A stretch of DNA of 64,000 nucleotides, from assembly GCA_030407315.1 (NCBI GenBank), contig JALQPE010000911.1, positions 39,139 through 103,138 on the forward strand, given 5' to 3'. A program made the translations under genes and the position numbers. This DNA comes from Asparagopsis taxiformis (Eukaryota; Rhodophyta; Florideophyceae; Bonnemaisoniales; Bonnemaisoniaceae). Below are positions 8,631 to 64,000 of this stretch, piece after piece (within the stretch, counting starts at the first letter, position 1; each line of letters begins with the position of its first letter). The notes under the pieces were generated by a model that searched no databases, had not been told where the DNA came from, and was given only the letters and a program-made list of their open reading frames with translations.

Positions 8631-8644
8631 TGGTAGGGGGGACC

Positions 8645-15315: not shown

Positions 15316-15817
15316 CCTAAAAGCCAGTAGAGGCGATGACGGACGTTGATAAAAACCCTGAAGCGGGACGAACAAGTGGCCTATTGGCTTAAGTCTCCGG
15401 AAGGGAGCTGCGCTATTCAACCCAGGAAGGGGATCGCGAGGCAATGGGCCGAAACGGCGAATGCAAGCCTCGAATTGGCACCGCTCGTGCGATCACGCGG
15501 CTAATTATTTAGCAGATGGACGCAAAAACCCTTTGAGGGATAATGGAAAGGACGCGAATGCGTGGACGCAGTTGGGCACCGAAGGGGTGAATGCGCTGTT
15601 TTGCGTTAGGACGATGATGAACCTGTAACAGTTATTGATTCCAACAGGAAACGGTCGGGCGGAACTCGGGAAGAGTCGGATGGACAACACATTTAGTGTG
15701 CACGCGCCGCGCGCGGGAAAATTTTGAATTGCACAATGCAACGGCCACAGCCAAAAATTGTAATTTTTATTTTTGATCAAATTTTGTCGGGACGACAAAT
15801 CTCTCAGGAGGGGGCCG
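15316..15817. other. No gene seen
   Basis: About 500 bp without a supported gene. It contains an AT-rich patch (about 15755-15790) and a GAATTGCACAATGC motif also present near 2403-2416. It is probably leader or flank of an old retroelement. Confidence 0.3.
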
Positions 15818-21623: not shown

Positions 21624-21625
21624 CT

Positions 21626-22311
21626 TGTCATACCGCCTGGCGGTCCTCTCAATCTGAGCCGTGTCGCTTCCCTATTGGGTACCCACTTAAGGGATGGGCC
21701 AATCACAAGGCATCAGCCAACTGGGCGTGTTTCCTGTAATTGGGACTAGAGCAAGGCTGTAAATACCCTACTCGGGCCTATCGGCCCTGGCCAAGACCCC
21801 ACAAGGGACCCATTTCTAACTTAAGCTAACCAGCTGTACATTACAATGTTAGCCTAACTGGCAATAACCTCGCGGGTAGGCGAGTGCCGTTAACTGGGTT
21901 CTGGTTGGTCAATAACTGGATATTTATTCCTAACCACTAACCCTAGCTTACAGTAGACTTAGTATAAAACTGCCACTGGAATAGCCAGTAGGCACGGTTT
22001 CTAGAGTAACGTAAACTCAAGTGGAATTACGACCCACAGGAACAGTGTTCGCATACCTATTGTTCAACCCCTCTCCGGGAAAACCTTAGGGTTATCCAAC
22101 AGCTCGACGGATTACGTCACTTTGCTCCATTAATACCCACCTCGCGTGAGCGCTATAATCGCACAACCCCCTCCGGGTAGCGATACCTTCTCTCATACGA
22201 GATTACCTGCTGGGTACGCTATAAGGTTCATCTGCTCTACCATCTCCTCTACCGAGGCTCGGGACACCTGTCGGGTGGTTTGCCGCTCCCGCGGATTTTC
22301 TACCTGCTACA
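21626..22311 (+). repeat. Solo LTR-B copy 2
   Basis: A 686-bp LTR with ends TGTCATACC and CTACCTGCTACA, flanked by a perfect ACACT duplication (21621-21625 and 22312-22316). A TATAAAA box lies at 21963-21969. It is a single LTR left by recombination, inserted 2 bp beyond the LTR-C terminus. Confidence 0.93.
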
Positions 22312-27259: not shown

Positions 27260-27453
27260 TTTTTATAGATTGCGTCATATCGATTGAGCAAACAATTACA
27301 GTTGGTCAACACGGTGCGTTGTTAAATAATTTCAAATCAAACGGTCCCGATTCGCACTTTGCAGATCGTGTCAGCTCAACGTATCATCGATGCAACGCGC
27401 ATAACTCAATCGCTGCTCCCTCTCCAACGTCGGCATGTAACCGCGTCCGCTGC

Positions 27454-30135: not shown

Positions 30136-31434
30136 TTACCATAGTTCACGTCCAAGCATCGCGAACAACTTGGCATTAGCAGGAGCATAAAACTCTTCCA
30201 AAAACTTGCGCGTACTCGGCAAAATTTCCACCAAGTACTTATCGTTACCAGCATACGTCTCAAAGCCCATCTTATCCAATCCCTGTGCCGCAGCCTGTTG
30301 CCCAAAGCTCATCGTGGATCCCTTGGCGCGATACCTCTCAAGCTGCTCCTCCGTGTACGGCTTGACGCACAGAAACTTGGCCACGTCCTGCATCGTCTCC
30401 GATTTGCCGGAAGAGATATCGTCAAATGGAACAAACATCATGCGGTTGGACGGATAATATTTCATCCACGTATTGATGTGCACATGGTACAGACCGCGTG
30501 TCACATACAACAGATCGTTGAACGTGTGCTTGTCATTGTAGAAGCACGTCAACAACTGCGACATGGAACCCTCCAAATTACCAGTAGACGCGTCGTATCC
30601 ACACTTTTGAATGCGTGCAACTTCTTCGCGCACAACTTCATCAAATCGCTCTGGTGTGGCAGATGTTTCTTCGATTCCCTGTGCCCGACGATCCTTGTTG
30701 AACAGTCGAATCATCATGTTGAATTGCGACAGAGCGCGTGAAATCGGCTCGCGAAGCGTCATAATGATCTTGGCGTGCGGCGTAATCGAATGGGCGAGAT
30801 ACGCTACACGTTCTGAAAGCATGTATTCCACGGTGCTGTCCATGACAATAGAGCGGTTTCCGTCAAGTGAACCATCGATGACTGGGATGTTGTCGGCATT
30901 GACGTCTGCATCTCCTGGGAAACCCGATTTGTAATGCTGCAGTCGTAGAGCGTGCAAATCCTGTCCCGTGTATTCTCGATGAAGTTGTGTGGGATATTCT
31001 GGATGATCCGGCGCACGGAGTTTTTCGAAGAAATGCCACTCCTTTATCATTCCTTTACGCATGACATTGAGATGTGAAATGCGCATAGATAGTTCCGAAG
31101 TTGCTGATTTCTGTGTTCCAATAATATACGCGTCCAAATAAGACGAGCTCATATGCTGAGCGGAGAACCACTGTCCACATGTTTCAGAGGATGAACTCCA
31201 TGACTTCAACAGGTTGCGCACAGACACATCGGGCACAACTTTGGTTTGAACAATTGTCCGCGGTTGCTGCACAATGGCCGGCTGAGACGACACCGATTCC
31301 GGAAGCGAATTGAGTTCGATCGATGGTGCACTCGGCGTCGAAGTCAAGGTTGTCACAATAATACCGGCTACGAATGCGAGAACGAGTGACGGCAGCGTCG
31401 CGGTTGAAACGCGACGTTTGAGGTTGGACGTCAT
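30136..31434 (-). CDS. PAPS-dependent carbohydrate sulfotransferase, Golgi type II
   Basis: 432 aa from the ATG at 31434; the upstream extension of the frame begins at TTG. A basic N-terminus (MTSNLKRRVS) and one anchor helix (LPSLVLAFVAGIIVTTL) give the usual type II Golgi topology. The 5'-phosphosulfate binding loop is IIGTQKSATSEL (about residues 102-113) and the 3'-phosphate site is KIIMTLREPISRALSQF (about 220-236). Between them is KEWHFFE, as in GalNAc4S-6ST and heparan-type sulfotransferases. It transfers sulfate from PAPS to a sugar hydroxyl. In a red alga the expected acceptor is a galactan of the carrageenan or agar class, which I infer from lineage and neighbours. The frame is intact and intronless. 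Confidence 0.92.
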   Translation of the reverse strand: MTSNLKRRVSTATLPSLVLAFVAGIIVTTLTSTPSAPSIELNSLPESVSSQPAIVQQPRTIVQTKVVPDVSVRNLLKSWSSSSETCGQWFSAQHMSSSYLDAYIIGTQKSATSELSMRISHLNVMRKGMIKEWHFFEKLRAPDHPEYPTQLHREYTGQDLHALRLQHYKSGFPGDADVNADNIPVIDGSLDGNRSIVMDSTVEYMLSERVAYLAHSITPHAKIIMTLREPISRALSQFNMMIRLFNKDRRAQGIEETSATPERFDEVVREEVARIQKCGYDASTGNLEGSMSQLLTCFYNDKHTFNDLLYVTRGLYHVHINTWMKYYPSNRMMFVPFDDISSGKSETMQDVAKFLCVKPYTEEQLERYRAKGSTMSFGQQAAAQGLDKMGFETYAGNDKYLVEILPSTRKFLEEFYAPANAKLFAMLGRELW

Positions 31435-33490
31435 GAAGGGCGTAGCTTGAACGGAGAGAGGTTTTCCCGCACTTGGGGAACGTGAAAGCTGGCGTGGGCG
31501 ACGAATGGTGACGGGTAGCAATGTGGAGAACGGGTACGAGATGTCTGGCAAGGGGTTGGAGGGAGTAGAGAGGTGATGAAAGAGTGGTGTGTGTTGTGTT
31601 CTGCAGCCCTACAGAGGGGTGGTGTGTGAATGGGTAGCGGGCGTTGTGTCGTGCTGGGCAAGAGTAGCGAGGGGAGGTTGGAAGCGCTGGTGGATATATG
31701 TGGTGAATTGACGATGTCTAGAGCAATTACATTACTGTGAGAAGCTGATGTTCCCGGTGGATGGACGGCGTTCATTTAAAGGAGGATACAAAAATGGTGC
31801 CAGTGTGTTGAAGAGGACATTCAATGAGAATTTAGGTGAATGATTATGTGTTATGTTAGTCACGATTTAACCGCTATACTACAGTAGTTAGTCATGGGCA
31901 ATGGCACACGTGACAGAGCGTGGCGTCACGCAGATGAACGTAGAAAGATTACAGCAGAGGCGGAGGAACGGCACGGTACGCAAAATAGCAAGAGCGTCGA
32001 GTTGAATTTACCAATGGAATGGGCGACGAATCGGCGGCGAGTCCAACGTTGGAGGACGTGGTACACTATTATGGAAGCATTCTAACCATGATTGTTTTAA
32101 CATAGTTATTGCATTCTACAGTACATACAAATCAACTACTTACACATGTTGAGCATGACGACACGTTAAGCGAGCGAAGCAATGAGTGACTGCGGACTGT
32201 TTTGCTTCCAGGCCATGGACATTACAGCGCATTAATAACTTATTGTCAATAAGAATCTGAATCGGTCGCTGTCAAGCATCGGCGGTTTGAATTCTCATTC
32301 CCCAACGCACGAGCCGAAAATAAAAGCACTTGCTGGTGCGCCGAATCGCGTCCGTCACGAAACATCACATCAATTGCACAGCCCCCCGTCTGCTTCAACC
32401 CTGTCATCCGCAGCCGCACGCTCAGTAACTTTCAGTCAGAAACAGCACCCGACTGCGACCGTCTTGCTTTCACATTGACCACTTATTCATGTGTGTGCAC
32501 CGTCACGGACAAGCTTGGCAGCCTAGTTTATTCCAATTTCTTGTCTGCAAATAAGGCAACAACGTGGATTTAAACCTCTGCTTGACACTGGGAGAGTTGC
32601 GATTATGAAAAACTCGGTATCATATGATGCTTTTTGTTGTCGATGAGCTGTTCCTATTTTTTTATCTCCAGAGATATTCCCGGTTGGCGCGAGATAGTTT
32701 CACAAACTATCTGCTAACGGTAAATTAGCCGGCTTTGCAGCATGGGTCTATACTAGGGCGGACCTGTTTCTGTGCAAAGTGTGCTGATGATACTTAATTC
32801 GCTGCAATAGTAGACTACATGGACTTGATTGGCGCCGGGTTGAACTTAGAATCGAATGGTAGAGGTTAACCCGAGTCGACGTGAAGGAAGGCGCGGCGGA
32901 GATTGCGACGAGATTTTTGTTATCCCCATGTACATAATTGTTTCGTGGCGTCTAGTGTGGCGATGACGAAACATTTCATACAATTTCAAAGGTGAATCCC
33001 ATCGTAGAGAACACATCTCTACGAAAGGCTGGCGATCATTACGAAATCTTCGCTGGCGCGATATAACAGCTAGTGTGATGAAGCGAATCACCAGTATCGA
33101 ATAGTATGTGGCCACGACAACACCCGACTCTAAAAAGCCATAGATCCGGGATGCTCGGCGCATGTGATAGCTAAGCCTGCATTACATCATAGATACGTGC
33201 CAAGGCTCAAGACGCCTGAAAACCGCGCGCGCGCGCTGTGTTATTCGCACGTCAAGAAACATGATCAACGCAAGCGCTCGCGGCGATCGTCTACTAATAT
33301 CACTCCCGCACCGACGACCCGCGAACCGAACTAGCACAGCACGCTAGGCTCGCGGGTCGTAGCACTCGCAGACAATCGGCGCAGCAACCGGAAGCGTCCA
33401 TGCTCATGACACGGATGCGGACGCACTGTCAGCCGACGGTGGCTACTGGCGACAAGGGGGCGCGCTGCGCATCCATCCACTTGCGCCGTG

Positions 33491-40027: not shown

Positions 40028-41976
40028 TGTAGGACCTTAGCCCTGTTAGATAGATTGTACCTCCGAGGGGGATAAGAGTATAGGGATAAGGCTTTGAACT
40101 CACAAGTGAGAGCACCGATTCGACGAGGCTGACGCCTCGTGCGATCCTAGTAGCCCGAGGGCTGTGTCGGGTGGATCGATCCCTCGGAGCCCGGACACCT
40201 GTCTCCCAACCCGATAGCAGTTGGTAGAGCGGGGTCCAGGACGGCTGGATCTAACCTGCCGGAGGGATCTATCGGCCGTGGCCGTCCTCAAACCACTTAA
40301 GGGTTAACTAGGAACATGGCGCGATGGATCCCTGCGGGGAATTGTGGTCGCCTCTACGCGTGGCTGCCCACACAGCGGATTCCGCAACTGTGATACCGCC
40401 GGCGGCTGCGGTCGAGACCGATTGAGAAGCCCACGGGCGTTGGCTCGGTTGACCGGATGGGGGTGCCGAACCGATAGCGCTCCCAGTCGGTAGCCTTGTC
40501 CCGGTGGGCGGAAGGCCACTCCCGGTCGCCTGACGGCGTTAAAAGAAGCGGGAAGGTGTGTAGCAGGTAGAAAATCCGCTAGAGCGGCGAACCACCCGAC
40601 AGGTGCCCCGGGCCTCGGTAGAGGAAAGTGGTAGAGCAGATGAACCTTATAGTATACCCAGCGGGTAGTCTCGTATGAGAGAAGGGGATCGCTACCCGGA
40701 AGGGGTTGGGCGAATAGGAATGCTCACGCTAGGTGCGTATAGATGGAGCGAGTGATGTAATCCGTCGAGCTGTTAGCTAACCCTAAGGTTGTCCCTGAGA
40801 GGGTTAAACACTAGGTATGCTAACACTGTTCCAATGGGTCGTAATTCCACTTGAGTTTACGTTACTCTAGAAACCGTGCCTACTGGCTATTCCGGTAGCA
40901 GTTTTATACTAAGTCTACTGTAAGCTAGGGTTAGTGATTAGGAATAAATATCCAGTTAGTGACCAATCAGAACCAAATTACTGGCGCCCGCCTACCCGCG
41001 AGGTCATTGCCAATAGGCTTACATTGTAATGTATGGCTGATCAGCCTAAGTTAAAATTTGCCCTCTTGTGGGGTCTTGGCCGGGGCCGATAGGCCCGAGT
41101 GGGGTATTTGCAGCCTTGCGCTTGTCCCAATTACAGGAAACACGCCCAGTTGGCTGGTGCCTTGTGATTGGCACATCCCGTAAGTGGGTACCCAATAGGG
41201 GAGTGACACGCTCAGATTGGGAGGACCGCCAGGCGGTGCGACAAGGTGGTCCACTACCGCGGAGACAGATGCCCTAGGGCAATCCACGTGCACTCCCGCC
41301 GGAGGAGGCTCGCGGCGGGCAATAGGGGACGAGTGCGAGCGGTCCCCAATTGGAGATCGGAACGAAGCGGCTGGTATCCTGTGAAGGAATTACCGCCGCC
41401 GTTTAGTTGTAAGTTAAACGACCACGGTCGAATGATTTGGAACCGAAACGATCTGCCTTTATTGTACCTTAGTGGTCAGTCCGTTAACCTTAAATGGTCA
41501 ACGAGACTGCCGGGACCGGACCCGTTCCGGCGTCCAATGGACCTTGTGGGGTGTTTATGCGGCCCAGGGGCCTTACAGAGTAAGCTGCTACGTTGCTACG
41601 TGTAAACTAATAGAAACGGCCAGACGTAACGTACAGGTGCACAGTTGTAACGGGAGAATCTTCCCGCTCGCAAACGTGTGCGACTAATCGCGCCTATATC
41701 GCTACACGTTGCACACTCGCCGAAGGGCCCCGCGCAAGCAATGTTGCCCGGTGCCAACGCAAGGCGGCACGCGCCTATTCGCCCTTGGGCTACAATTCCT
41801 TTGCCACGTCACCGCGGCTAGCGATTAGCAACGCGGCTCTTCGCGGCTGATTCCTTACCGAACGCCCACTCACGCGCGCGAGCGTACCGCTTAAGAGACC
41901 CCTCCTGGCGCCCTTTCCAGACGCCTGGAATTATCCTCCCGCGACCGCTCGCAGCGCAATAGGTACGAGTCCCACA
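40028..41976. repeat. LTR-E insertion in Copia2 gag, itself carrying LTR-B
   Basis: Ends TGTAGGAC and GTCCCACA form a short inverted terminus, and CACAC flanks both sides (40023-40027 and 41977-41981). Removing it restores the gag zinc knuckle. Without the nested LTR-B it is about 1.26 kb, without ORFs, so most likely a solo LTR. It is GC-rich and contains a D-arm-like AGCAGTTGGTAGAGCG near 40214-40229. Confidence 0.8.
40559..41243 (-). repeat. Solo LTR-B copy 3
   Basis: A 685-bp LTR in minus orientation (plus strand begins TGTAGCAGGTAG and ends GGCGGTGCGACA). It has perfect AGGTG duplications at 40554-40558 and 41244-41248. It lies inside LTR-E, inside Copia2, inside Harbinger: the fourth nesting level. 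Confidence 0.93.
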
Positions 41977-50325: not shown

Positions 50326-50715
50326 CACTACGGTGTTGAGAATGAAAACAGACAGTAAATTTACTGTCTGAGACAGTAAAAATTACTGTCTGGCCAAGAC
50401 AGTGCGCGGAGACAGTAAAATTTACTGTCTGGAAATTTCAGAATACTGCTGCAGCAGTAAACTGGCACGAAATCTGGACAGTACCAAAAACAGTAAAATT
50501 TACTGTCCAGAACAGTAAATTTTACTGTCCGGAAGTGTTGCCGCCAGACAGTATGTGCAGACAGTACATTTTACTGTCTGAGACAATACATTGTACTGTA
50601 TTACTGCACTGTCTGGGGAAATCTGTAGACAGTAGTGTAGATAGCAAATTGTATTGTCTGCGGGTAGTACCGTGCATTGTTTGACAACACTGTCTGGTGG
50701 AGTGGACTTAGAGGA
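50326..50715 (+). repeat. CACTA left terminus and subterminal repeats
   Basis: After the terminal repeat come at least a dozen ACAGTA/TACTGT and ACTGTC/GACAGT motifs in both orientations, several forming perfect palindromes such as ACAGTAAATTTACTGT. This matches the subterminal transposase-binding arrays of CACTA elements, and the motif is shared with the 7859-8630 region. Confidence 0.75.
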
Positions 50716-51227
50716 AATATGGAGCATAGTGTTGGTGTGAAGGTAAATATTGGAATGGTGTGTGGTATACGACTATATTAATTGTGATGGTGCTTTACAG
50801 ATAGTTGGGTGCGGGGAAGCTAGATGCTGAATAGGACGTTGGAGAAAGGAAGATTGGGAGAACAGAACATATCTGGTTTGTCTCACCGTAAGGAGAGAAT
50901 GTACATAGTAGCTATAATATGTTGAGTTTAGCATTTCAAATTATACCTATCTATCTTTGCATTGAAAGTGTCTAGTAGGAGACGTCAGTCTGGTAGCGAG
51001 GTGTGGTATGCACAGGACGTGGGTGGTGGCAAAGGAAAGAATACGCACCATCCACCACTAAATTATGAAAAATAACCGTTACGGAGCACTGGGAAGCATT
51101 ATTATTATGTAGAGTAGACCAGGATGGATGCATCCACTGAAATGATATTTGCTACAACACTGCTGTACTAAGCGTGACATCCTTCAAAGCAATTCTCCTT
51201 TTAGCAAACTCCAATTGCAAGGTCAAG
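50716..51227. other. 5' region of the coiled-coil gene
   Basis: About 500 bp without a gene, between the subterminal repeats and the first ORF. It presumably holds the promoter. No clear TATA box was identified. Confidence 0.35.
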
Positions 51228-52754
51228 ATGAATCCCGAAACCTCCGTAAGCATCGCCGCATTTTCCGAAATAACGCGTGAGGGCTTTTCGAACATCACTG
51301 CAGAGTTGAAAGCCCTGAGTGATAAAATGGATGCCGTCGAGAAGAGCACCATTCAATTACGCGAGACTCTCGGAAATGTCGCCAAGACTGTCTCCATGCT
51401 AAACACCGATATGCAGGAGGTCAAGAGCATCGTCGATGGGCTTCTGAGCCAGGGACAAGGACATCCGAAGAAGATCGCCTCCGAGAAGGACAGGGAACGT
51501 CTCCGCATTGCGCAGGATGCGGAGAAATCGTTCACGTTCGAAATGGTGTGTGCTGTGCTGTGTGCTGTTGTTCCAACGTACACGAAGGCAATGGTGGATA
51601 AGAGGGATAGGCATTTCAACGGATGCCAGCTAATCAATACGCTGATGTTCGCCAGGCAGAGCAATGAGCGAAAGGATGTGTTCAATAGGACGCTTGCCGG
51701 CCGGAACCACATTGAATTGCGCTGCCAAGTTGTGACCTCTTTAATCAAGAATACGTGTCAAAACAATTCTTTCAGAGAGGGAGGAGACCGTTCCAGCTCC
51801 AATGGAACGTCGGAAGGTATCGAACGGTGGAGGGCGCGGGGGTATGTGACTACCGGGACCATTGAGGAGACAATTCGCGGAACGGACTCTGCTCGCATGG
51901 ATGGAATGCATGGGACGTCCGAGGGAAGTGATGGGGCCGCTCGAAAGCAGAAGCGAAGAAAGGTTGGAGACAATGGGCCGTTGCACAGAAAGGAGGTAGG
52001 CATCACTGTGACGAAATCGGCACTCACAGCAGTGACCGGGTTTATGAACAAGTCCAGAGATCATGTGCGAAACCGGTTCATCCGAGATCTTGGATTCGTT
52101 CTATACAGTGGGTTTCAAGGTTCAGTCCGAATGGAGCATCATTTGCACGACGGTGGGCTGGACATTGAGTCAGTTCCAAGTCTGTACTCGGCGCAGAGGA
52201 AAATGAATGCAGCGGAGCGTGCAGCAATGGATGACAAGAATATGAAGATTCTTCGCGACTTCATTGCAGTGCGAAAAGAAATGCTATTCAAAGTCGAGTA
52301 CGAAGTTCAAATAATTGGAGAACCGGACAAGAGGTTTTTGACTAGGAGGATCAATTTAGTAGAGGTTGCACTGAACTTTGCAGTCGCCTACACGCAATGT
52401 TCTGATAAGAACATGTTCCTGCGACGTTCAGAATACTCCTTGCAATTCATCTACATACTTGCATACGGGTTCCGAACGATTTTGAAATTTCAAAGTGGAA
52501 CAGAGGTGGAAGGAGCGCAAATCCGGGAAATCAATGAAGCAGTGAAACTGCTTCTTCCCGGGGAGCGGGTGAGTAGTCGGTTCATGAATGAGGAGGTTTT
52601 GACTATATCGCGTGATAGATATGAAGAACTGAACGTAGACGATGGGGGGGAATCAGTGCTGGAGGAGAGCTTCAGGTCTATGGAAGAGGACGGAGGAGAT
52701 GCAGAATATGTGAAGGTATTCGTCGATGATGAAATCGAGAATGAAGGGGAGTAG
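51228..52754 (+). CDS. CACTA cargo gene 1: coiled-coil protein of unknown family
   Basis: 508 aa from the first ATG (51228); the longer frame starts at GTG. Residues ~1-75 form a heptad-rich coiled coil (AELKALSDKMDAVEKSTIQL, LNTDMQEVKSIVDGLLSQ). A Cys-containing helical segment follows (MVCAVLCAVVPTYTKAMVDK). A Gly/Ser/Arg-rich linker with a KQKRRK nuclear localisation motif comes next, then a C-terminal domain of ~240 residues (MNKSRDHVRNRFIRDLGFVL, RINLVEVALNFAVAYTQC) and an acidic tail. It may be an oligomerising DNA-binding protein comparable in role to TnpA of CACTA elements, but that is only inference from position. Intact frame, same strand as the ParB-MTase-SET gene. Confidence 0.75.
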   Translation: MNPETSVSIAAFSEITREGFSNITAELKALSDKMDAVEKSTIQLRETLGNVAKTVSMLNTDMQEVKSIVDGLLSQGQGHPKKIASEKDRERLRIAQDAEKSFTFEMVCAVLCAVVPTYTKAMVDKRDRHFNGCQLINTLMFARQSNERKDVFNRTLAGRNHIELRCQVVTSLIKNTCQNNSFREGGDRSSSNGTSEGIERWRARGYVTTGTIEETIRGTDSARMDGMHGTSEGSDGAARKQKRRKVGDNGPLHRKEVGITVTKSALTAVTGFMNKSRDHVRNRFIRDLGFVLYSGFQGSVRMEHHLHDGGLDIESVPSLYSAQRKMNAAERAAMDDKNMKILRDFIAVRKEMLFKVEYEVQIIGEPDKRFLTRRINLVEVALNFAVAYTQCSDKNMFLRRSEYSLQFIYILAYGFRTILKFQSGTEVEGAQIREINEAVKLLLPGERVSSRFMNEEVLTISRDRYEELNVDDGGESVLEESFRSMEEDGGDAEYVKVFVDDEIENEGE

Positions 52755-53029
52755 TATCGGATGAAACCAGTTTCGGTGTAGTAGACGAAGAATGAAGAAA
52801 TAAAATTTCTGTTGAGGTGAATTTTGTAATAGATGGAAGTAGATAGGTGCGAGACATCAGGAAACCAGTCAGACGATAGTGTCAAGTCGAAGGAACAGCG
52901 CAGAGACAGGTAGTGGAATAGTCGAAGTAGGAAGGGGCGAGGGTATCCGTCTTTACTAGAAATTGATGGCCACAGGAGCTCTAGAATGGAATACCCAGGA
53001 ACAGGATAACTACGGATAGGTGTGCTTTA
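52755..53029. other. 3' ends of convergent genes
   Basis: A 275-bp spacer between the convergent coiled-coil and Tudor-like genes. It contains AATAAA at 52798-52803, a possible polyadenylation signal for the plus-strand gene. Confidence 0.45.
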
Positions 53030-54391
53030 TCATTTTTGCTCCGGACTGCAGGTGGCAGGTGGAGGAGAGGGTGGGTGGGTAGTGTCTGAATCCGCATTGA
53101 AGCCAAGACGAGAGATAGCCTCATAGCCAATGTCTTCAAGCTCCTGGCATATAGTAGTACCACTGAAAATACAGCAAGGTAAGCGTAGATGTAGTGTACC
53201 AAACGTCTCTGCGGTTGATAGAGGCTGGAAAGTGCTGTAACAAGCTCGGCGCTGAATACGTCTCCACAGTAACGAAAACGTTGCTCCATAAGTAACAGTA
53301 GCCTTATCACGTAGGTGGAAAGAGTCCACGATGCTAGACTGTGATAGTTGGCTAAGACATAGGGGATGTAAAAATGTATTGTTGACATGGTCAAACTCGT
53401 AGGAGTCTCTGCAAAGAACTGTCATACGTTGGTCTGGGCTGGACAGGACGTAAGCAGATGAGCCGACGAGAAATGCGGAAGAAGGAGCATCATGAGAGCA
53501 GTCAACGTCGACTAGATTTCCTAAAATTCGGACAATCGATGAGCTGCCTCCATCGCGTTCCGCCCTGCTCTTCACCAATATTTTCTGGAACCCGTGTTGC
53601 GAGGTACCTATGGAGTCACATAGTGCCTGAAAGGTGGGGAAAATGATGGAAAGATCCGACTCATTTCCAGAGGGAAAGGTGATGTCCTCAAAGGACGGCA
53701 GGAAGAGAACATCACGATTCTCTTTCGCCTTGCATTGAATGGCAATAGTGCGGAATTGAGCAAGGGAGCAGTCAGCCTGTACTCTGATTTCTTCTTGCGA
53801 TGTTTGTCGCATTCCCCTGGAGTGCTCGGATTTTGTCATCCGGAGGGAGAGGGGCTTGTCCGTGTACACACCAAGCTTCTGAAACAGAATGCTACATACA
53901 GTCAGAGCAGAGGAGGTCATGGAGCTGTTGGAATCGAATGGAGGGGGAAGAGGATGTTTGGCAGCTGACTCCAGCTTTTCCAATCTTGCCAGCATTTCTG
54001 CTATGGTCTTCTTCATTTGATCCGCAGTGCAATCTTGAAGGATGCCGCGGTGGCGGTGGCGAGTGTGGTCAATGCCGTAGTCCGGGTCTCTCTCTGCTGG
54101 GGATGCAGGTGAGTCCATACTGCGAAGCTCACCACTTCGCCACGGGAGAACCCTTCCGGAATCCTTGTCGACGAGCTCGTTACGATCTGAAATCTTGACT
54201 TGAGAAAGGGTAGAGTCGAAACCATATTCAGCTTTGTATTCGAGCAATGCATGGAGGAATGGGTCTGTTTCGGTCTTGACCTGAGTAATTTCCTTGACGA
54301 TTGCAGACCACCACACAATTTTTCGTTTCCTCCCAAACGGCCGAAGTTCCCATTGAACTTCTATAACGTCGTTTGGAGCGAGAGGAAGCAT
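53030..54391 (-). CDS. CACTA cargo gene 2: Tudor/chromo-like domain protein
   Basis: 453 aa; the ATG at 54391 opens a small beta-rich domain at residues ~5-75 (NDVIEVQWELRPFGRKRKIV, then WWSAIVKEI and a YKAEYGFD strand). The 'VxW...WWxAxVxxI' pattern is typical of Tudor-like royal-family domains that read methylated lysine or arginine. A short coiled coil follows (MKKTIAEMLARLEKLESA), then a long region without recognised domains (LFLPSFEDITFPSGNESDLS, VRILGNLVDVDCSHD) and a Pro-rich C-terminus. It is divergently transcribed from the ParB-MTase-SET gene, with a 513-bp shared upstream region. A methyl-lysine reader beside a SET methyltransferase suggests a write-and-read pair, but I infer this from context. 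Confidence 0.7.
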   Translation of the reverse strand: MLPLAPNDVIEVQWELRPFGRKRKIVWWSAIVKEITQVKTETDPFLHALLEYKAEYGFDSTLSQVKISDRNELVDKDSGRVLPWRSGELRSMDSPASPAERDPDYGIDHTRHRHRGILQDCTADQMKKTIAEMLARLEKLESAAKHPLPPPFDSNSSMTSSALTVCSILFQKLGVYTDKPLSLRMTKSEHSRGMRQTSQEEIRVQADCSLAQFRTIAIQCKAKENRDVLFLPSFEDITFPSGNESDLSIIFPTFQALCDSIGTSQHGFQKILVKSRAERDGGSSSIVRILGNLVDVDCSHDAPSSAFLVGSSAYVLSSPDQRMTVLCRDSYEFDHVNNTFLHPLCLSQLSQSSIVDSFHLRDKATVTYGATFSLLWRRIQRRACYSTFQPLSTAETFGTLHLRLPCCIFSGTTICQELEDIGYEAISRLGFNADSDTTHPPSPPPATCSPEQK

Positions 54392-54904
54392 GTTGGGATA
54401 GCTATGGGATAGAATTGTTGTATTAGTGAAAGCCTAACCGTTACCTTCTGCTAAAGAGTAGTATATACTAGGAGGATTGGAAAGGTCCAGAAGAGATGTT
54501 TAGGTGGTGTAGAAATAGAATGGACAATTGACAAAATTGACACGTCAGTGTGGATGATGTCTGCCATGAACTGATTGCAGCATAAAATTTGATGTGAATA
54601 ATCGTTCTAGAAGTGAATGTCGGATGCATACGATTGGACTACAAAGATACGCTTAGAGATGTTACGGGGCCCAATAAATTGCATGGAAAAATATTTTGAG
54701 TATTACTTTAGTATTACATTGATTATTGAGCTAACAGTCGATGTAGTTATCTTGTAAAGGTTCGGACAGGGGTGGAAAGGAAACAGCCACCGAAGTGCTA
54801 CCACTCGCTGACACTTTGTTTTAAACAACCAACTTCTGCTTTGCGCCACCCTGGTCAAGCAGCAACCAACTATCCCTTTCTTAAAAACTCTACCTTTGTT
54901 CGCC
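54392..54904. promoter_or_regulatory. Divergent promoter region
   Basis: 513 bp separate the two divergent start codons. It is AT-rich in its centre and contains AGTAGTATATACTAGG (about 54456-54471), a near-palindromic TATA-like sequence on the Tudor-like gene side. I see no ACTGTC subterminal repeats in it. Confidence 0.35.
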
Positions 54905-57900
54905 ATGGAAGGAACGTTCCACAATCACGGTGAAAAGCACGACGGATGGGTGTTCATCGACCCCAATCAAGTCAGCAAATTCGTATCGATTCGCGATGTT
55001 GATGCAAGTCATGTGGAAGCGCTCATGGAGAGCATTCGCAACAGCGGTTATGACACAGCTCATCCCGTGACTGGCAGGTTTCGAGAAGGCGTTCTGGAGA
55101 TATTGGATGGAGCGCACCGCTGCATGGCAATTGTACGTGGAATGGAGAAGGGCGTCTTTCCTCCTGGCGTTACGATTCCTATGCGAGAAGAGTCTATCGT
55201 GGCGGACACCAACAGCAGTACTGCTGTTGTGCTGGACCGTGTGAGAGCGACGACATCCAACGACATTGCAGGCCTGCAAAGGCGCATGATGTTTGTTGAG
55301 TATCTGATGATCGCCGTTGATCTCAGAGACGAGTACTGGGTCCAAAAAGGAAAGGACAAGTACGCTCATATTTCGTCTGTGAGGATGGCCGATGTGTTGG
55401 GCTGGATCAAGTCCTGCGATCCAAGCGGCCAAATTGCTTCAAGCCTGAGTGGTAAACCGCAGTACAGCTCATGCATGTCTATCCTGGCTGTGCTTCGGCC
55501 GTATCACCGAGCAGAAGATTCGAGTGCGATTGATTTGCGTCTGTGGCAAATGTTTTGTCATGCATGGGGACTCAATGCAGAGATGGGTGATTCTCCGAGG
55601 ATGGTTGAGTTTCCGAAACAGGTGGGGGTGACTAGTTCTCGTGCCGTCGAAATGTTTGGCAAGACACCCCGCGGAGAATTGTCCTCTCCACTGAACCGCG
55701 AACTGCTTTCGAGCAGGTACTTTCTAGACGGCGCTACATCCGACATGCAAGATTCTTTGCAGGCTAGCCAGAAGCGGTTCAGGAGGCTGATGGTTATGAT
55801 GTGCCAGTGTATCTTGGCTATTCGCAGTAAGGAGATGGGCAGTGCGCCATCTAGGCGGGCCAGAGCCACATCCGGGGCCATTGGTGGTGGTGGAATGGTT
55901 GGAATTGCAACATCCAGTGCGCAAGCCAACCAGCTTGGATTTGTTGTCGACCGTGTGTTAGCTGCGTGGGATACCGGGGCAAGAGTGTTGGGGTATGAGG
56001 ATGTTGAATCGATGTGCTGGCCGTTCATGGTATTCGATCCTGCGAGCCTTTGCTTCAGGTCACTCCCGAATCGGTCTGATGGCTGCGCGGTCGAGGAGCA
56101 TCGGAAAAACCTGACCATTGTCCCGAAAACTGTAGACAGTGAAAACGGGTTCTGTGCCGACCTTCCAGTGGCTGTGGATGCAAGGCTGCGATCATTGACA
56201 AGCGCCTTCCTGCTGTCGATACGCCAATGTGTCACTGAGGTGAATGTGTTCGCCGAGCGTGGTCAGCTGATGCAGAGACTTCGAGCCTTGCTTTTCGACA
56301 CTCCTGACAAGTTCGGATTGAACTCGTTCATGCGAGCCAAGTTGAACACGTCTCATGCCCTGGATGGTCAGAGGAGGCTGAAGGCTTGGTTATTGCGAAC
56401 CCGAGAGCAACGAAAGCTTCCTCTGACCATGGATGAGTTGCACAGTCTTGAGGATACGCCCGAGCCTGGCATCCTTGAAGGTGCACCTGCGCAGATGGAA
56501 ATATCCGCAGCAGTGCCAAACAATGGCAGCGAGGATATAGAAGAGGATAGTCTGGAGCCACAGAGGAAGAAGGCTAGGCTGGAGCGCGGTGGTGGAGAGG
56601 ACGATAATGCGGCGGTTGCTAGCGAAACAGCAACAAGAGAAGGTGCGGCCGAGGATGACGCTATGGAGGTTGACACTGTATCGCCTACAGAAGCACCGCT
56701 CGTTGACGTCGGAAAGGAATCCAAGCCGGAATATGTCACCAAGCTGGAAGCTGTGATGGGGCGTTACATTCACACTGTGAATTGTGACGCCACTGATGTA
56801 GCCAAAGAGGTGGAGGACAAAATTAGTTTCCTGGAAGATGGCGTGTTGGAGGACAGTGTTCAGCTTGTGCTCACTGATCCTCCATTCAACACGAGGCGGG
56901 AAGGCGGCAGAGAAAACTCGGAGTACGATATTCTGGAGCCGGAAGAGTTGGCGAGTGTTGCGTGTGAAATAGTTCGAGTTCTTCGGCCTGGCGGTCATGC
57001 TCTAATCTATTCCAGCGTGCGCCAACTCGTGGCATGGATGGATGCAATCAGAAATGCCGAGCCTGGCAAGATGATTGTGGACAGTGTTCCAGTCGTGCTA
57101 TCTCGCCGACCACACAGCTTTACGTCCAATCCATCGACGAAAACGTGCACACTGCATAATATGCACGATTTCGTTATCCATGCGTATAAGCGGGGGAAGG
57201 GTATGGCTGCATACGATATGGTGGATTACAGGTTGCACAATCCGGACATATCGAGGCACCCTGGGTTCACCAACGCGATTGACAACGTTCCGAGGTTGTC
57301 GGCTGGTGAAGCTCAATACGATGGGCAGAACAACCGACTGCGCCATGAGCAGAAGGCGTTGACCACTCTTCGTGAGCTTCTGGAACGATTTTCGAAGCAG
57401 AACGATATCGTGATGGATTTCTTCTCGGGAACATACAGCACAGCCATAGCGTGTATGACGTTGAGGGATGGTACGTATCGTCGGTTCATTGGGTGTGAGA
57501 AGGAAAAAAGGTGCCACGATGCATCGCAGGAGTGGATACTGCATGCTTTCGTCAGTGAGGTGAAAGCCGGGCGATATGGGGGGATCTTGCAGCGTGAGGT
57601 GGAGAGTATTCTTGGGGACGAGTCGGTACCGGTCACAGGAAAAGCTCCAAGGCTTCGTCAGAAGCACATCTCAGATGCACCAGAAGGTTTACCTGCTGTG
57701 ACAGCATTGCCGAACCATCTGCTTGTGTTCGTTGCGTCAATGAAGAAGGACGGTTCTATGCTTCACAGATTGAGCGGGGTGCCTATGGACCAGTGGCCGG
57801 CCGAGGACATGCACTCGTTTTGGAGCATAGACCCGGACGCGATTCTGGCTGCTGATGCCGCATTCTACGGTGTCTATGTTTCGCAATCGGAGGTAAGAGG

Positions 57901-58372
57901 TGGTGGGTTTGGCGTATTCGCGGCGAAGAAACTGAAGAAGGGGACGGTCATTGGCTGGTACAACGGGACGATTTTCTATGCGAAGATTCGAGACTCGGAA
58001 CCGCAGAGATCAGTGATGTACGGCCCGGAAGGATTTGGGTGCACAGGACAGAGGTTCCAGGACTACAACATGGAATTGGAAACCACGTACATAGGGAGGG
58101 GTGCACCTGTTCGGAAGGTCTGGCTCGTTCCAGCGGTCTATAATTGTACCAGCTACCTCAATGATTGTCGGGTCATTGACGGAACGGAGAAAGCGACCGA
58201 GGTGAGTCGAACACAGTCAGCCGAGTTTCGACAAGGCGATGCCATAGACAAACCGGACTTTGCTTCGAATATCAAGAATCCCCATGCTGTCAAGGTCGTT
58301 CTGACCAGAGACGTTGAAGCTGATGAGGAGATATTTGCTGACTATGGTAGAAAATATTGGCCAGCTAACTGA
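54905..58372 (+). CDS. CACTA cargo gene 3: ParB-like / DNA adenine methyltransferase / SET fusion
   Basis: 1155 aa from the ATG at 54905 (context GCCATGG); the in-frame TTG upstream is not used. Domain 1 (about 10-90) is ParB/sulfiredoxin-like: WVFIDPNQVSKFVSIRDVDA, then the phosphate-binding EILDGAHRCMAI (DGAHR at 68-72). A helical region follows (90-450), then an acidic linker with a basic nuclear-localisation-like patch (RKKARLERGG, near 555). Domain 2 (about 625-890) is a beta-class DNA methyltransferase: motif IV VLTDPPFNTRR (DPPF 658-661, N6-adenine type) precedes motif I IVMDFFSGTYSTA (838-842) and IGCEKE. Domain 3 (about 990-1155) is SET: GGGFGVFAAKKLKKGTVIGW, NCTSYLNDCRV, then EADEEIFADYGRKYW. 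No introns or breaks. Predicted to methylate DNA and protein lysine in the nucleus. Confidence 0.93.
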   Translation: MEGTFHNHGEKHDGWVFIDPNQVSKFVSIRDVDASHVEALMESIRNSGYDTAHPVTGRFREGVLEILDGAHRCMAIVRGMEKGVFPPGVTIPMREESIVADTNSSTAVVLDRVRATTSNDIAGLQRRMMFVEYLMIAVDLRDEYWVQKGKDKYAHISSVRMADVLGWIKSCDPSGQIASSLSGKPQYSSCMSILAVLRPYHRAEDSSAIDLRLWQMFCHAWGLNAEMGDSPRMVEFPKQVGVTSSRAVEMFGKTPRGELSSPLNRELLSSRYFLDGATSDMQDSLQASQKRFRRLMVMMCQCILAIRSKEMGSAPSRRARATSGAIGGGGMVGIATSSAQANQLGFVVDRVLAAWDTGARVLGYEDVESMCWPFMVFDPASLCFRSLPNRSDGCAVEEHRKNLTIVPKTVDSENGFCADLPVAVDARLRSLTSAFLLSIRQCVTEVNVFAERGQLMQRLRALLFDTPDKFGLNSFMRAKLNTSHALDGQRRLKAWLLRTREQRKLPLTMDELHSLEDTPEPGILEGAPAQMEISAAVPNNGSEDIEEDSLEPQRKKARLERGGGEDDNAAVASETATREGAAEDDAMEVDTVSPTEAPLVDVGKESKPEYVTKLEAVMGRYIHTVNCDATDVAKEVEDKISFLEDGVLEDSVQLVLTDPPFNTRREGGRENSEYDILEPEELASVACEIVRVLRPGGHALIYSSVRQLVAWMDAIRNAEPGKMIVDSVPVVLSRRPHSFTSNPSTKTCTLHNMHDFVIHAYKRGKGMAAYDMVDYRLHNPDISRHPGFTNAIDNVPRLSAGEAQYDGQNNRLRHEQKALTTLRELLERFSKQNDIVMDFFSGTYSTAIACMTLRDGTYRRFIGCEKEKRCHDASQEWILHAFVSEVKAGRYGGILQREVESILGDESVPVTGKAPRLRQKHISDAPEGLPAVTALPNHLLVFVASMKKDGSMLHRLSGVPMDQWPAEDMHSFWSIDPDAILAADAAFYGVYVSQSEVRGGGFGVFAAKKLKKGTVIGWYNGTIFYAKIRDSEPQRSVMYGPEGFGCTGQRFQDYNMELETTYIGRGAPVRKVWLVPAVYNCTSYLNDCRVIDGTEKATEVSRTQSAEFRQGDAIDKPDFASNIKNPHAVKVVLTRDVEADEEIFADYGRKYWPAN

Positions 58373-58647
58373 GCTACTTTGATAGATTTGAGTAAACACG
58401 CATTGACAGAGACAATAGACTGTGCATCATCTTCCAAGAGCGCTAGATATTATAGACTACACTACAACAATCGTGACATGACTGCAGGAAGGCATCTGCG
58501 GCCTGGAGTGCAAACTATCCACTTTTCAACTGCTATACCTATGGATACGAAAGGGAGAGAAACTAGAAAGATGTGAGTGCGAAATTGTGTAGCAACGCAG
58601 CATGTAGAACACCAGTAACAGAGCGATGTAGGAGAAGCAGTCACCCC
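58373..58647. other. 3' flank of the fusion gene
   Basis: 275 bp without a gene between the stop codon and palindromic cassette 4. Confidence 0.4.
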
Positions 58648-58996
58648 ATTACAGTGCGGGCCGTTTACCGGGGATGCTGACAGCAAAGTCATCGTTACGA
58701 TGACTTTGCTGTAAGAAAACAAATCATTACAGCAGCCATGATTTCTTTACCGGGTAAAAAAATTGTGGCCGCTGTAATGAAACGTTTTCTTACAGCAAAG
58801 TCATCGTAACGATGACTTTGCTGTAAGAAAGCAAAACATTACAGCGGCCACAATTTTTTACCCGGTAAAATTTCTTGCTGATTTTTTACCCGGTAAAAAA
58901 TTCTTTGGCCACTGCAAGGAAACGGTTCCTTACAGCAAAGTCATCGTAACGATGACTTTGCTGTAAGGAACCCTGGTAAACGGCTTCAGCTGTAAG
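58648..58996. repeat. Palindromic cassette 4
   Basis: Same family as the cassettes at 0.5-3.4 kb: three CTTACAGCAAAGTCATCG hairpins (about 58675-58715, 58789-58829 and 58928-58967) with ACCCGGT/ACCGGGT palindromes between them. It lies 276 bp after the stop codon of the ParB-MTase-SET gene. The sequence just to its right (58998-59080) contains an inverted repeat with GAGTTTCGTCCTTCTCCC and its complement. Confidence 0.88.
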
Positions 58997-59528
58997 CAGC
59001 AGGGAGTTTCGTCCTTCTCCCTTCTTGGTAAAGGTACCTTTACCAAGATGGGAGAAGGACGAAACTCCCTGCTGTCTCACATGAGAAGCGAAGTGTGAAG
59101 TAGGGAACATCACGGGAGGATGGTTTGGACGGCTGTTGGTCGCAAAATCTACTCCTTGTGCCGTGAGCCACAGCGACCATATGGTACCTGTGCCTCACGG
59201 CATAAAATATATATTCAACCCGCCCGGGCGGGAACCGGCGCCGGTTCCGGTGCACTATAGTCGTCAATAAGTAGGACTCTAGCTACTCACTATACAACTA
59301 TAATCGTAAGGTAGGATAGCCTAAGATCGTAGTACGGAAGAGACGGATGGGAGGGTGTGTGTAGAGGAAAATTAAGGCGGCAGTACGAGTAGCCTATCGT
59401 GGTAATAGACGAGTATTTCATTGCGAGAGGGGGCGTGAGGGGGGAAACGAAAGGCGTCAGTCGTCACCAGAGAGGCTGGGATGCTGAAGGCGGAGTAGAG
59501 AAATGGGGGAGAGGGTGAAGCCAGACTG

Positions 59529-59877
59529 CTTACAGCTTTGGCAGTTCCGGCGGGGTGCTGACAGCAAAGTCATCGTTACGATGACTTTGCTGTAAGAAAA
59601 CAAATCATTACAGCAGCCATGATTTCTTTACCGGGTAAAAAAATTGTGGCCGCTGTAATGAAACGTTTTCTTACAGCAAAGTCATCGTAACGATGACTTT
59701 GCTGTAAGAAAGCAAAACATTACAGCGGCCACAATTTTTTACCCGGTAAAATTTCTTGCTGATTTTTTACCCGGTAAAAAATTCTTCGGCCACTGCAAGG
59801 AAACGGTTCCTTACAGCAAAGTCATCGTTACGATGACTTTGCTGTAAGGAACCCTGGTAAACGGCTTCGGCTGTAAG
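59529..59877. repeat. Palindromic cassette 5
   Basis: Almost identical to cassette 4 over its whole length, including spacers; a few differences such as TCTTCGG against TCTTTGG are visible. It has three hairpins at about 59560-59599, 59671-59709 and 59809-59849. The pair with cassette 4 is a recent direct duplication of ~880-bp period. Confidence 0.88.
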
Positions 59878-60352
59878 CAGCAGGGAGTTTCGTCCTTCTC
59901 TCATCCTGGTAAAGGTAAGAAGCGAAGTTTGAAGTCGGGTAAATTGCTCAGCAAAGGTCTGTACGGCTGTGAGCAGCTCTCAGGAGTATTTTACCTCACG
60001 TGGTCTCTGTTCAGGTTATACCCTGTATATATATAGGTAGCCTAGTGTAGGTGGGAAGATAGACGAAAATTCTACAAATAATTTATCACAGTGACGGCTC
60101 TCGTAGTCGAAATCTGCGCGTTGTCAAGGGTTGAAACTAGTCTCCCCCTACGGCCTAGCTAGTAAAATCATATAACGTTGTAGACTAATATTAAAAAGTA
60201 GCAAGCAATCTGCTGAGTAGCACTAAACTATGAGATGAAGGACAGATGTATAGATGAGAACTGAAAAATGGGCTAAGGTAACAATGTTGAGATGAGAAAG
60301 ACAGAACTTTATAGCAGGGAACAGTAGTATAGGTTTTAATACTTCTGATATG
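59878..60352. other. Spacer between cassettes and copy B
   Basis: Non-coding; collinear with 3420-3810 of the left copy (shared CTAGCTAGT and GTAGACTAATA segments). This shows that cassettes and ParB-family gene belong to one repeated unit. Confidence 0.6.
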
Positions 60353-63300
60353 CTATCTATTGCTCCTATCGTACTTGTAATATTCGACGGTGTGGATGTG
60401 GTCCGTGAGGACGTCCTTCTCCGTCTTCAAGTAGATGTGGCCGCGCGTGGGCAGGCCATAGACTAACTTCTCGCCTGCAGGAAGATCTCCTCGGCTGAAG
60501 CCGACCCCGTAATGGTAAAGGTCACCGCGACCAACCAATACGGAATAGGGTGGCACCCAAAGATGAGAGGGGGAACCTTCCACATATCGGCGCCCGGACT
60601 GGCCAGGCATACATGACTATAAGGGGCAACTACTATAGAGAACCCATCGGCTCCGCTCGACATCATGAAATATGATGGAGACGTGGTAGGACTTCCAACA
60701 CTATTCGTCGCTACCTTGAAGTCCGTGTGCCCATCCTGGTCCGCAGCCCCATCTGCTGTAAGAAGCAGCCGCAATCCTGTCTTCGGGAAGAAGACAGGAT
60801 CCTCACCCTCCATTCCCAACTTCAAGAACTCCGCACAAACACCAAGAGCAAGCTCTGCCACCAACTTGTTCTTATACATCTCCAAATTCCCCTCCTCCAA
60901 CTTGTCGCACAACTCACGCCGCGGCAGAGAGAGGCGCCCACGACCACCATCGATGCGGCCCTTCGCATCACCCACGTTGTGGATGAACTGCCACGGCGAA
61001 GGATCGAAGCCGGGCTTTGCGAAAGCTGGCGGCTCGTCCTGTGGCTCCCTGTCGTCATCGTTAGAATCAGACTGCTGGGAGGGTTTTTCAACCTCCTCAA
61101 CCAGCGGGAACTGCCTAGCGAAGTGACCGAACAACTCATGCGTCGCATTACCAGCCGTGGACGATGCCAACAGGCCTTCCATAACAATAACCCCCAAGTT
61201 TTCCAACAATGCCTTCTTCACCGCAAAGTACCTGTCCACCACCGTATCCTCAGCACCCGGCGATGCAGCTGCCTGGAATGCTGCCGCCCTCATTTCCGCC
61301 CGAACCGTCTCCACCGTCGTACTTTCCATATAGTACTTCATCCGGCTGCCAGACGCAATTGCGCTGGGGAGAACGGCGGCCACATTCTCATCGACGATGC
61401 TGTCGGGAATGGGATTCTCCTGGGCGTCGTCGAACTGGAGAACCGGCTCCCGAGAGCGACCTCGGGAAGCCGACTTGGATTTCTTTGACGACGACTTTGA
61501 TGAAGTCTCACCGAGCCTTCTCTTTTTGGTAGAAGGCTCGGGCGTCGCAGAAGCGGCTTCCAAGTTACGCTTCCCGAGGATGGAGTTTTCACCCGCATCC
61601 TCGGGGGCGCTCTCCAGCTCGACGACCTCCACAGCACCACCCGCCGTTCCACCACGACCGGAACGACTCGCTTGCAGGCGGGTACTCCTTCTGGGCATCA
61701 CTTTCCTCCCAGAAGTTTCCACTCCGGGCGGTGCAGAATCACTGACTTCAATGACATCTTCGTCAGGATCTGCACCGCCCTTCGCACTGCTGCCCTCGAC
61801 CACATTCTCGGGAGTAGGGCCCTCCGTCGAAATCCTCGCAACCGTCTTCTGTCCAACCCCACCGGATGGTGAAGGGACGAAGCTGTCATCGCTGGAGCTT
61901 CCCGAACTGCTAGCAGATGCAGAACGGGAAGCTTCGACAGCGGGGGCCGGAGCAGCAGGGTGCTGCTCGGCAGCCGGAGTCGCAGGCTCAGGCTGCGAAG
62001 CCGGTGAGACCTGCTCCTGCGCGGCTTGGACAGGACGGTTGGGGGTACCAGTCCCGGCGTGGGAAACTGGACCAGAGCGTTCGCTGCCATCCTGGGGACC
62101 ACGCGCAGTCGGCTTGACCGGGGTCACCGCAGGGGAGGATGCAGACACGGCAGGGGTAGAGACAGGAACAGGGGCAACCTCGGAATTGCTGGAAGATTCC
62201 AGTTGAGGTGGTGGGGGCAAAGGAATGGAGGATGAAGGGATGGGCAAGGAATTGGAAGAGGAAGGGATGGGGGCATCATCACCACATGTGGCTGGGAGCG
62301 CAGCATGTGGGATGTCTGGGTACATCGCGTGAAAGCGTTTCCGCATTGCATGTCGCGGTACCCAGTGACGCGCAGGAGCATTTTCCTGGCGTCCTTCCCG
62401 AAGACAGACTTCTTACGGGAAAAATATTTTCGTAACTGTAACCATCGGGGGGGCCTTCCTTGGGACGGAAGTCTGCCCAGCACCCCTTCTTGGGGACCAT
62501 CTGAGCAAGAACTTCGACAACGCGCGAGCGAATGTCGAAGCTCTTGCTCGGGTCACCCCGGCTGGGAATTGACCCATCCAGCATCCTCAACACATCCGAC
62601 ACGTTCCAGTACTCGGCCACCTCCTTCACGTACCCGAAGATTTCCAACAAACCAGCAATCCATTCCTGCCCAATGGTACCAACCGAGTACGGTTTCAGCC
62701 CGGCCGACCGACGGCTACAAGTGTAGCGCGCCGTCATCTCCAGGATGAAACACTTCTGTACATCCGGAGCACTCCTGAACGACCCATTGAACAACAAGTT
62801 CACCGTACACCCAGCCAGATCCTCTGTGGAAGAAAATTGAACGAACTCCGGCCTGTTCGGGATGCTCGACCAGTATTGAAAGCAGGGCTTTCAATGGTCT
62901 TGAACCCTCGCGCGATCGAGACGTAGCGCATGAGCTGTCTCGGACGAATCCAGCTCAGCGCTTTCCGTTCTTTTATGTATTGAACGGTCGGCTCGATCTT
63001 CTTCTTTCCCAGGCGGTGGATATTGATGAACTCCATCACAGAGCACACATTGTCAGCAACTGTTACCTCGCTGACATTGTGGGTGTGGAAGTTCATCAGC
63101 CGTGAAAGCGGGAGTACTTCTTCGGAGCAGAAGACATCCCGGCCAAGCCGAGTCGGTGGGAGGAGAAAGTCGACTGGAATAGTTCCAAAGCGACGGTAGA
63201 TGTCAGACTTGACAAACTCCTCCCACTCTGGACTGTCCTTCGCAGGAGCAGGTCCAGCCGACTCGAGAATGGCCTTCAACGCGGTCACTCGGTGAGATCC

Positions 63301-63869
63301 ATCGACATATTGCAGTCGTACTTTTGCATTGGAATCAATCACCTCGCAGACGGACACGCGTGAAGCAATCACGGAAAATCCCTGAGTGAGAAACGTTTTC
63401 TTCAACTCATCAACGCGATGCGGCCTGACCACCCTGGACACGACTGCCGGAGGAGAAACATCCAGGGGGGAAATGAAGACTGGAATGTTTCGGCAGCTCT
63501 CCGGACTTATGTCGTAGTCCACATCCACCGGGATGGGCACTGTGCCAGGGTAGGCCAGCCTGGTGCTGCGGAGAGGCTTGTTCGGTACGATGTCACGAGC
63601 GTTGTGATCATCGACCTTCTCCGCATCCTCTGCCAAGTCGCTGCCGGACGCGATGATCATGTCCGGAGCAGGCGAGCTGGGCAGAGGAGCACCAGATCCC
63701 TCGACGGCTGGCGCCGCTTCGGCAGATTGAGCCGGGGAAGCGGAGTTGCGGGAACGCCAGCGTCGATTGTCGGGACAACCGCGGGATCGGAAGCGGAAGG
63801 GGGGGAGGGGACGGGCTTAGGTGCTGGCTGAGCTGGGGTCAGCGCTGCAGCAGCTTCGCAAACGTCCAT
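60353..63869 (-). pseudogene. Second ParB-family gene, copy B, frameshifted
   Basis: Read right to left: a Pro/Ala/Ser-rich head, a ParB-like domain in an intact 286-codon piece (62800-63660; VVRPHRVDELKKTFLTQGFS, then LQYVDGSHRVTALKAIL with the DGSHR motif), and a helical region (FINIHRLGKKKIEPTVQYIK). Next come the middle domain also present in copy A (GQEWIAGLLEIFGYVKEVAE), a long low-complexity segment with basic KKSKSASRGRSRE, and a C-terminal domain (ELALGVCAEFLKLGMEGEDP ... GHIYLKTEKDVLTDHIHT) ending at 60353. Single-base shifts near 62860, 62430, 62340 and 60580 break the frame; comparison with copy A places the middle two precisely. The domain order resembles the N-terminal half of the ParB-MTase-SET gene, without methyltransferase or SET. 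Confidence 0.75.
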
Positions 63870-64000
63870 GGGGACAGGGGGGCCAGAGAAGGAGAAGGAG
63901 AGGGAGAAGGAGGAGGGGAAGGAGTGGGAGAATCGTTGTCACGGCGGCTGGCGAGCGCACCTGGCGGTCGAAAGCGTTGGGGATTGTTTGAGCCATTGCT

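Follow-up and report, generated by a model that had tools for sequence, protein, structure and literature searches.

The 64,000-nucleotide stretch of Asparagopsis taxiformis DNA analysed here (the window: positions 39,139 to 103,138 of contig JALQPE010000911.1, assembly GCA_030407315.1) contains a gene, hereafter gene A, that is the cargo of a mobile element and whose product combines three parts in one protein: a ParB-like domain, a DNA methyltransferase of the beta class (N6/N4) and a SET domain. The reading we favour, with moderate confidence, is that gene A travels in a high-copy element of about 26 kb and that its product is a two-headed chromatin writer, predicted to act on DNA adenine and on lysine, the latter likely in histones. 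The coupling of DNA-adenine to histone methylation by this product is a prediction, and the base may be N6-adenine or N4-cytosine. If true, DNA methylation and lysine methylation would be linked through a single polypeptide.

Gene A and its product

Gene A is read from one uninterrupted frame of 1155 codons (Table 1). The first-pass annotation of this DNA had proposed the single intact frame, the ParB-like domain, the beta-class motif order and the SET domain from the letters, and all four were borne out. The N-terminus matches PHROG 1033 in a profile search and its AlphaFold2 (AF2) model resembles ParB, Noc and sulfiredoxin (Foldseek, VIA); a ParB-like fold and the conserved arginine of the DGxHR stretch are both present. 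From its family, this domain would be expected to confer nucleotide-dependent DNA loading or dimerisation. The methyltransferase matches the PF01555 profile, and its motif IV (DPPY/F) precedes motif I (FxG), which is the order of the beta class. The SET domain is found above the Pfam cut-off (E 4.2e-6), with the tyrosine of EExxxDYG in place (Y1147), and the family SET profiles match KMT2C (4.5e-6), SETD7 (4e-5) and an EZH2-SUZ12 chimera (8.6e-5); lysine methylation is the activity predicted from this family membership. The VIA run on the full gene A model covered residues 615-886 only, the ParB-like and SET assignments standing on the other comparisons.

The methyltransferase most likely writes N6-methyladenine (6mA), to judge by its relatives. 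Its best sequence and fold matches are the adenine enzymes CcrM, M.BceJIV, MboIIA and M1.HpyAVI, and DPP[YF], the usual form in adenine methyltransferases, is kept in 67 of the 68 proteins of the family alignment described below. Both observations run against the alternative that the enzyme writes N4-methylcytosine, like the chromodomain enzyme of bdelloid rotifers, which we hold to be quite unlikely.

Table 1. Features of the element copy, in window positions
Feature	Position	Strand	Remarks
Mobile-element copy, left 13.7 kb	50326..64000	+	left terminus CACTACGGTGTTGAGAATG at 50326-50344
Left subterminal repeats ACAGTA / TACTGT, many palindromic	50346..50780	.	limits approximate; tandem repeats
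ORF508, unknown protein	51228..52754	+	element-carried
ORF453, unknown protein	53030..54391	-	element-carried
Gene A, ParB-like domain, helical region, disordered linker, beta-class DNA methyltransferase, SET domain	54905..58372	+	1155 aa
Gene A, ParB-like N-terminal domain, residues ~11-112	54935..55240	+	DGAHR = residues 68-72
Gene A, methyltransferase domain, residues 615-886	56747..57562	+	DPPF 658-661, EQK 815-817, DFFSGT 838-843
Gene A, SET domain, residues 986-1155	57860..58369	+	Pfam PF00856; GFGVFA, GWYNGT, YLNDCR, EEIFADYG
Array of six 37-bp palindromes (58678-59847)	58649..60008	.	genes A and B face it with their 3' ends
Gene B, ParB-like N-terminus (DGSHR), disordered-looking region, putative 2-oxoglutarate (2OG)-Fe(II)-dioxygenase-like C-terminus	60353..63816	-	frame broken in window

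Copies, ends and gene order of the element

The protein of gene A occurs at 100% identity and without a stop in at least 40 places, the window's included, on 39 contigs of the window's own assembly (141.5 Mb, 3156 contigs). This count is a lower bound, all 40 scored matches, out of 3827 first-look candidates, being identical and open. The 30 loci that were cut out, again with the window's own, have 99.7-100% DNA identity to the window over 5.4-6.5 kb, and this near-identity suggests a recent spread of the element. Genome-wide there are 212 exact matches to the 30-bp left end, against 0 for the reversed control. A left-end anchor was present in 20 of the 22 left-side loci fetched (L074 and L080 being without it); among these 20, one is cut off by the end of its contig and two represent a single place. 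Directly beyond CACTACGG the flanks are unrelated between loci, except for two places in C1577 that look like a segmental duplicate. Gene A had been taken for a single old gene that was preserved while its surroundings decayed; it is instead part of a near-identical mobile-element copy, and a lone gene kept by selection in isolation is ruled out by the at least 40 identical copies in the genome.

These copies also bear on whether the sequence might be a bacterial or viral contaminant of the assembly. The methyltransferase and ParB parts are bacterial in type, as contamination would have it. Against this stand the SET domain, the copia elements of the window and the distribution of the 40 gene A copies over 39 contigs, with differing flanks where these were read. 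Moreover, in all 24 prokaryotic loci retrieved by the family profile, the match is confined to the methyltransferase, at 21-25% identity (their flanks were not scanned for SET). We consider contamination exceedingly unlikely.

The extent of the element was taken from C168 only, where gene A is known to lie between the ends. There, the left end (28895) and the right end (2748) are 26,148 bp apart in one orientation, and ORF508, gene A, a motif of the B' side and a transposase-like frame lie between them in the same orientation. Both ends are also found in matching orientation in C44 (27,188 bp) and C74 (25,264 bp), where gene A is not among the 40 scored places. The window's contig (C911) stops at its position 103138, that is window base 64000; gene B' and the right end of the window copy lie beyond. 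The gene order is a composite, its left part being read in the window, its middle in C788 and C632, and its right part in C168. From the left, it runs from subterminal repeats through ORF508(+), ORF453(-) and gene A(+) to a first palindrome array, which is followed by gene B(-), another array, gene B'(-) and one more array; then come a transposase-like frame of 1016 amino acids with one of 286 amino acids upstream of it (both -), subterminal repeats and the right end, ...TCAACACCGTAGTG. Two nearer ends were considered and rejected: 58967, because the C788 copy runs on through gene B (genes B and B' continue on from gene A there), and CAATCTA (~18.7 kb), since in C168 the right end was found some 7.5 kb farther on, with C632 and C168 still in agreement beyond CAATCTA.

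The ends are inverted and of the CACTACGG type, the right one agreeing with the left terminus at 17 of 19 positions. ACAGTA/TACTGT is found 16 times in the leftmost 700 bp (mononucleotide shuffle mean 0.44, maximum 3) and 17 times in the 1200 bp at the right end (shuffle maximum 5). Ends and subterminal repeats fit the EnSpm/CACTA pattern 5'-CAC...GTG-3', and we infer a DNA transposon of the cut-and-paste kind. A 3-bp target-site duplication is present at none of the three matched end pairs, where CAA/ACA, CTA/AAC and TGC/GCC all differ. EnSpm transposases have, according to an excerpt of PMC12730594, the motifs C(2)C and H(3-4)H; the transposase-like 1016-amino-acid frame, downstream of the 286-amino-acid one, has CHIC at 397-400, lacks H(3-4)H beyond this point, and has no match in Pfam. 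Because of the missing duplication at the three end pairs and of this lack of a Pfam match, we describe it as a mobile element whose inverted ends are CACTA-like, rather than as an EnSpm transposon.

Ends of other elements were seen as well. Two right ends of related elements, CCTTTTCAACACCGTAGTG on the + strand, lie in the window at 8612-8630 and 2079-2097; the stretch ending at 8630 contains 11.8 copies of a 35-bp unit in a tandem array (7858-8270) and, to the left of this array, a relative of gene B at 3518-5938 (87% over 1681 columns, 84% over 759). Left ends of other elements are found inverted beside the copy in C767 (L061), after CAATCTA in C788 (L083) and within gene B in C1577 (L084), as if the elements favoured insertion into one another.

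As for the two remaining genes of the left part, ORF508 is identical and open in all 85 scored matches of its own genome, the window's included, and has no Pfam match above the cut-off. ORF453 is common to 30 of 30 loci (the window's own included) from 53405 onward, at 99.7-100% DNA identity, and its remaining part to 3 of 3 loci at 100%; it has no match in Pfam, PHROG or NCBIfam.

The gene A family and its conservation

A first protein search (E <= 0.001) returned four proteins, namely the gene A product itself, P0002, P0003 and P0004, of which P0002 is a full-length homolog, 43% identical and with all three domains. The profile search gave 66 relatives at E <= 1e-5 among 7995 scored candidates, including P0003 and P0004 as well as proteins of Chondrus crispus (P0041) and Pyropia yezoensis (P0069 and P0070). 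Together with the gene A product and P0002, these form the alignment of 68 proteins. Nine of the 68 have DPPF in place of DPPY, DxFxG is kept in 65, and the SET residues N1086, Y1147 and G1021 are all kept in 51. Since 66 relatives were found and 48 of the 68 aligned proteins keep every checked methyltransferase motif and SET residue, gene A is not a chance fusion. DGAHR is present in eight proteins; P0015 and P0018 align there without it, and the others start further downstream. Between the gene A product and P0002, the methyltransferase and the SET domain are each 54% identical, the ParB-like domain 40%, the helical part 38% and the linker 21%, a pattern to be expected where domains are under constraint. 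As read from residue conservation, the family alignment shows long-term selection on gene A. The first-pass annotation had also invoked selection, from an intact frame amid decayed elements; selection stands, on the long term and from the family, and that argument for it does not.

The same data are relevant to the possibility that gene A is a passive cargo, hitch-hiking without any chromatin role for the element. Fungal TET/JBP genes, as described in an excerpt of PMC12730594, move often but passively between transposon lineages, and in the clade containing P0004 the full set of SET residues is kept in none of the ten rows. Against passive carriage stand the 43%-identical, full-length three-domain homolog, the 48 proteins that retain all checked catalytic residues and the ParB-like N-termini in three genes of one element, and we regard it as very unlikely.

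In P. yezoensis, two annotated copies, both truncated, are 88.6% identical to each other over 385 residues and lie on two long contigs, which fits dispersal in that genome too. The bromoform-gene locus of A. taxiformis is drawn, in an excerpt of PMC12115072, with genes labelled adenine-specific and site-specific DNA methyltransferase; these may be members of the gene A family. Among viruses, 15 phage records match the family in the methyltransferase part only, and five loci on viral contigs also match. One of these contigs, L002, encodes a 403-amino-acid protein that is, by eye, ParB-like and then methyltransferase, in agreement with the earlier suggestion that this half of gene A resembles phage and bacterial fusions. 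The tree, from which viral rows L001, L003, L004 and L005 were left out, places L002 inside the algal family, but with only 18% of columns filled this placement is unreliable.

Companion genes, proposed mechanism and known systems

The C788 copy has gene B as an open frame of 1080 codons (L082:1721-4963(-)); gene B' is open over 1087 codons in C788 and C632. The two are 33% identical and have in common DGSHR towards the N-terminus and HTD...H...R towards the C-terminus. Dioxygenase-type residues H956, D958, H1028 and R1051 (L082 frame numbering) are common to both paralogs, HxD...H...R being the pattern of 2OG-Fe(II) dioxygenases. The assignment of these C-termini is putative and made at the level of motifs: Pfam gives no 2OG family even at E 10, and the PDB sequences a single unrelated match (E 2.1). 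The ParB-like character of the N-termini is suggested by DGSHR and by a weak profile alignment to gene A (hhalign of the gene A N-terminus with the ParB-like region of gene B, P 0.0036, the best of 10 shuffles giving 0.13, with an HH probability of only 9); a test of the same kind against the L002 protein failed. A protein search with the window frame of gene B at 60463-62412 found no match among 7106 candidates. Between copies A and B of gene B, substitutions by codon position are 11/11/34 and 3/7/17 in two frames; in the long frame, they are 33/37/52 in the 3' part but 66/53/63 over the whole, and 0/7/1 in a 64-base overlap.

The 37-bp palindrome has 15 matches in the window against 0.00 expected, 12 of them exact, with six in the array of the element and nine at 546-3361 in neighbouring related sequence. 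Its core has a mean pairwise identity of 0.975, compared with 0.60 for the flanks taken as 30 bp ungapped and 0.795 as 40 bp gapped; beyond the third palindrome, the sequence varies between element copies. A candidate binding site for an element-encoded protein would explain the conservation of the core, gene conversion between hairpins being an alternative source. The exact palindrome has no occurrence in the viral contigs.

The rest of the window holds a Ty1/copia-type element (8642-15005) with long terminal repeats at 8642-9132 and 14515-15005, 98.6% identical, and gag, integrase and reverse transcriptase frames between them. A repeat of about 690 bp is present in three copies, 89-92% identical and one of them inverted (15815-16500, 21624-22311 and 40559-41246). 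Frames for a sulfotransferase (30136-31551, -) and a family-2 glycosyltransferase (27319-28632, +), both recognised by Pfam, are perhaps host genes.

We propose that the methyltransferase half of the gene A product methylates adenine in DNA, and that its SET half would do the same to lysines of neighbouring protein, histones being the likely target; the ParB-like domain would load or dimerise the enzyme on DNA, perhaps at the element's own palindromes. The element would thus mark its own chromatin, and such marks may keep its copies active or protected; the two companion genes, B and B', could remove or tune the methyl marks. On these predictions, the element would be able to write chemical marks on surrounding DNA and chromatin, and, if true, this would be a case of the ParB fold at work on mobile DNA in a eukaryote. 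One may go further and imagine ParB-like clamps that load on the palindrome arrays as on parS, one writing DNA and histone marks and two dioxygenase clamps erasing them. Such a portable chromatin system, by which the element would set and reset its own epigenetic state independently of the host, is a speculation that we consider rather improbable.

The marks could also serve transposition. Dam marks hemimethylated DNA for some bacterial transposons, and CcrM, which the gene A methyltransferase resembles, is a cell-cycle maintenance enzyme; the element that holds gene A also has a transposase-like frame. The gene A product would then be a transposition regulator marking newly replicated or hemimethylated element DNA, and its SET half would modify a transposition or replication protein instead of histones. 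The SET profile matches fall mostly on histone enzymes (SETD7, KMT2C, EZH2 and KMT5A), which counts against such a role, although a match does not show the substrate. This scenario appears somewhat unlikely, and we retain the chromatin writer as our preferred reading.

Several known systems resemble parts of this one. Phage fusions of a ParB-CTPase fold with an N6_N4 methyltransferase (PMC12704722, PNAS 2025, in excerpt) also join a ParB-like domain to PF01555 and are linked to mobile elements; they belong to phages and prophages, whereas gene A belongs to a eukaryotic mobile element, and the term SET domain is absent from the available text of this survey of the ParB fold. The N4CMT of bdelloid rotifers (PMC8885841, in excerpt) likewise joins a bacterial-type PF01555 enzyme to a eukaryotic chromatin domain, but this domain is a chromodomain instead of SET, the enzyme is an acquired host gene, and the excerpt mentions no ParB-like domain. 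The fungal TET/JBP transposons (PMC12730594, in excerpt) are DNA transposons, including EnSpm with CAC..GTG ends, that carry a DNA-modification enzyme as the present element does; those described there carry dioxygenases only, with no ParB-methyltransferase-SET gene. N4CMT and the TET/JBP transposons are precedents for parts of the proposed mechanism, not for the whole. HarbingerS transposons, going by the title of Kojima & Jurka 2014, are DNA transposons encoding a SET histone lysine methyltransferase, and that title names no DNA methyltransferase. Among the titles and abstract beginnings of the literature matches listed, there was no report of a ParB-methyltransferase-SET fusion or of a red-algal methyltransferase-SET protein, and a prior mention in reviews of eukaryotic adenine methylation is possible. 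Mobile elements carrying a DNA-modification gene or a SET gene were already known; none of the listed matches showed a DNA methyltransferase and a SET domain united in a single protein, with putative ParB-like dioxygenase genes alongside it in the same element.

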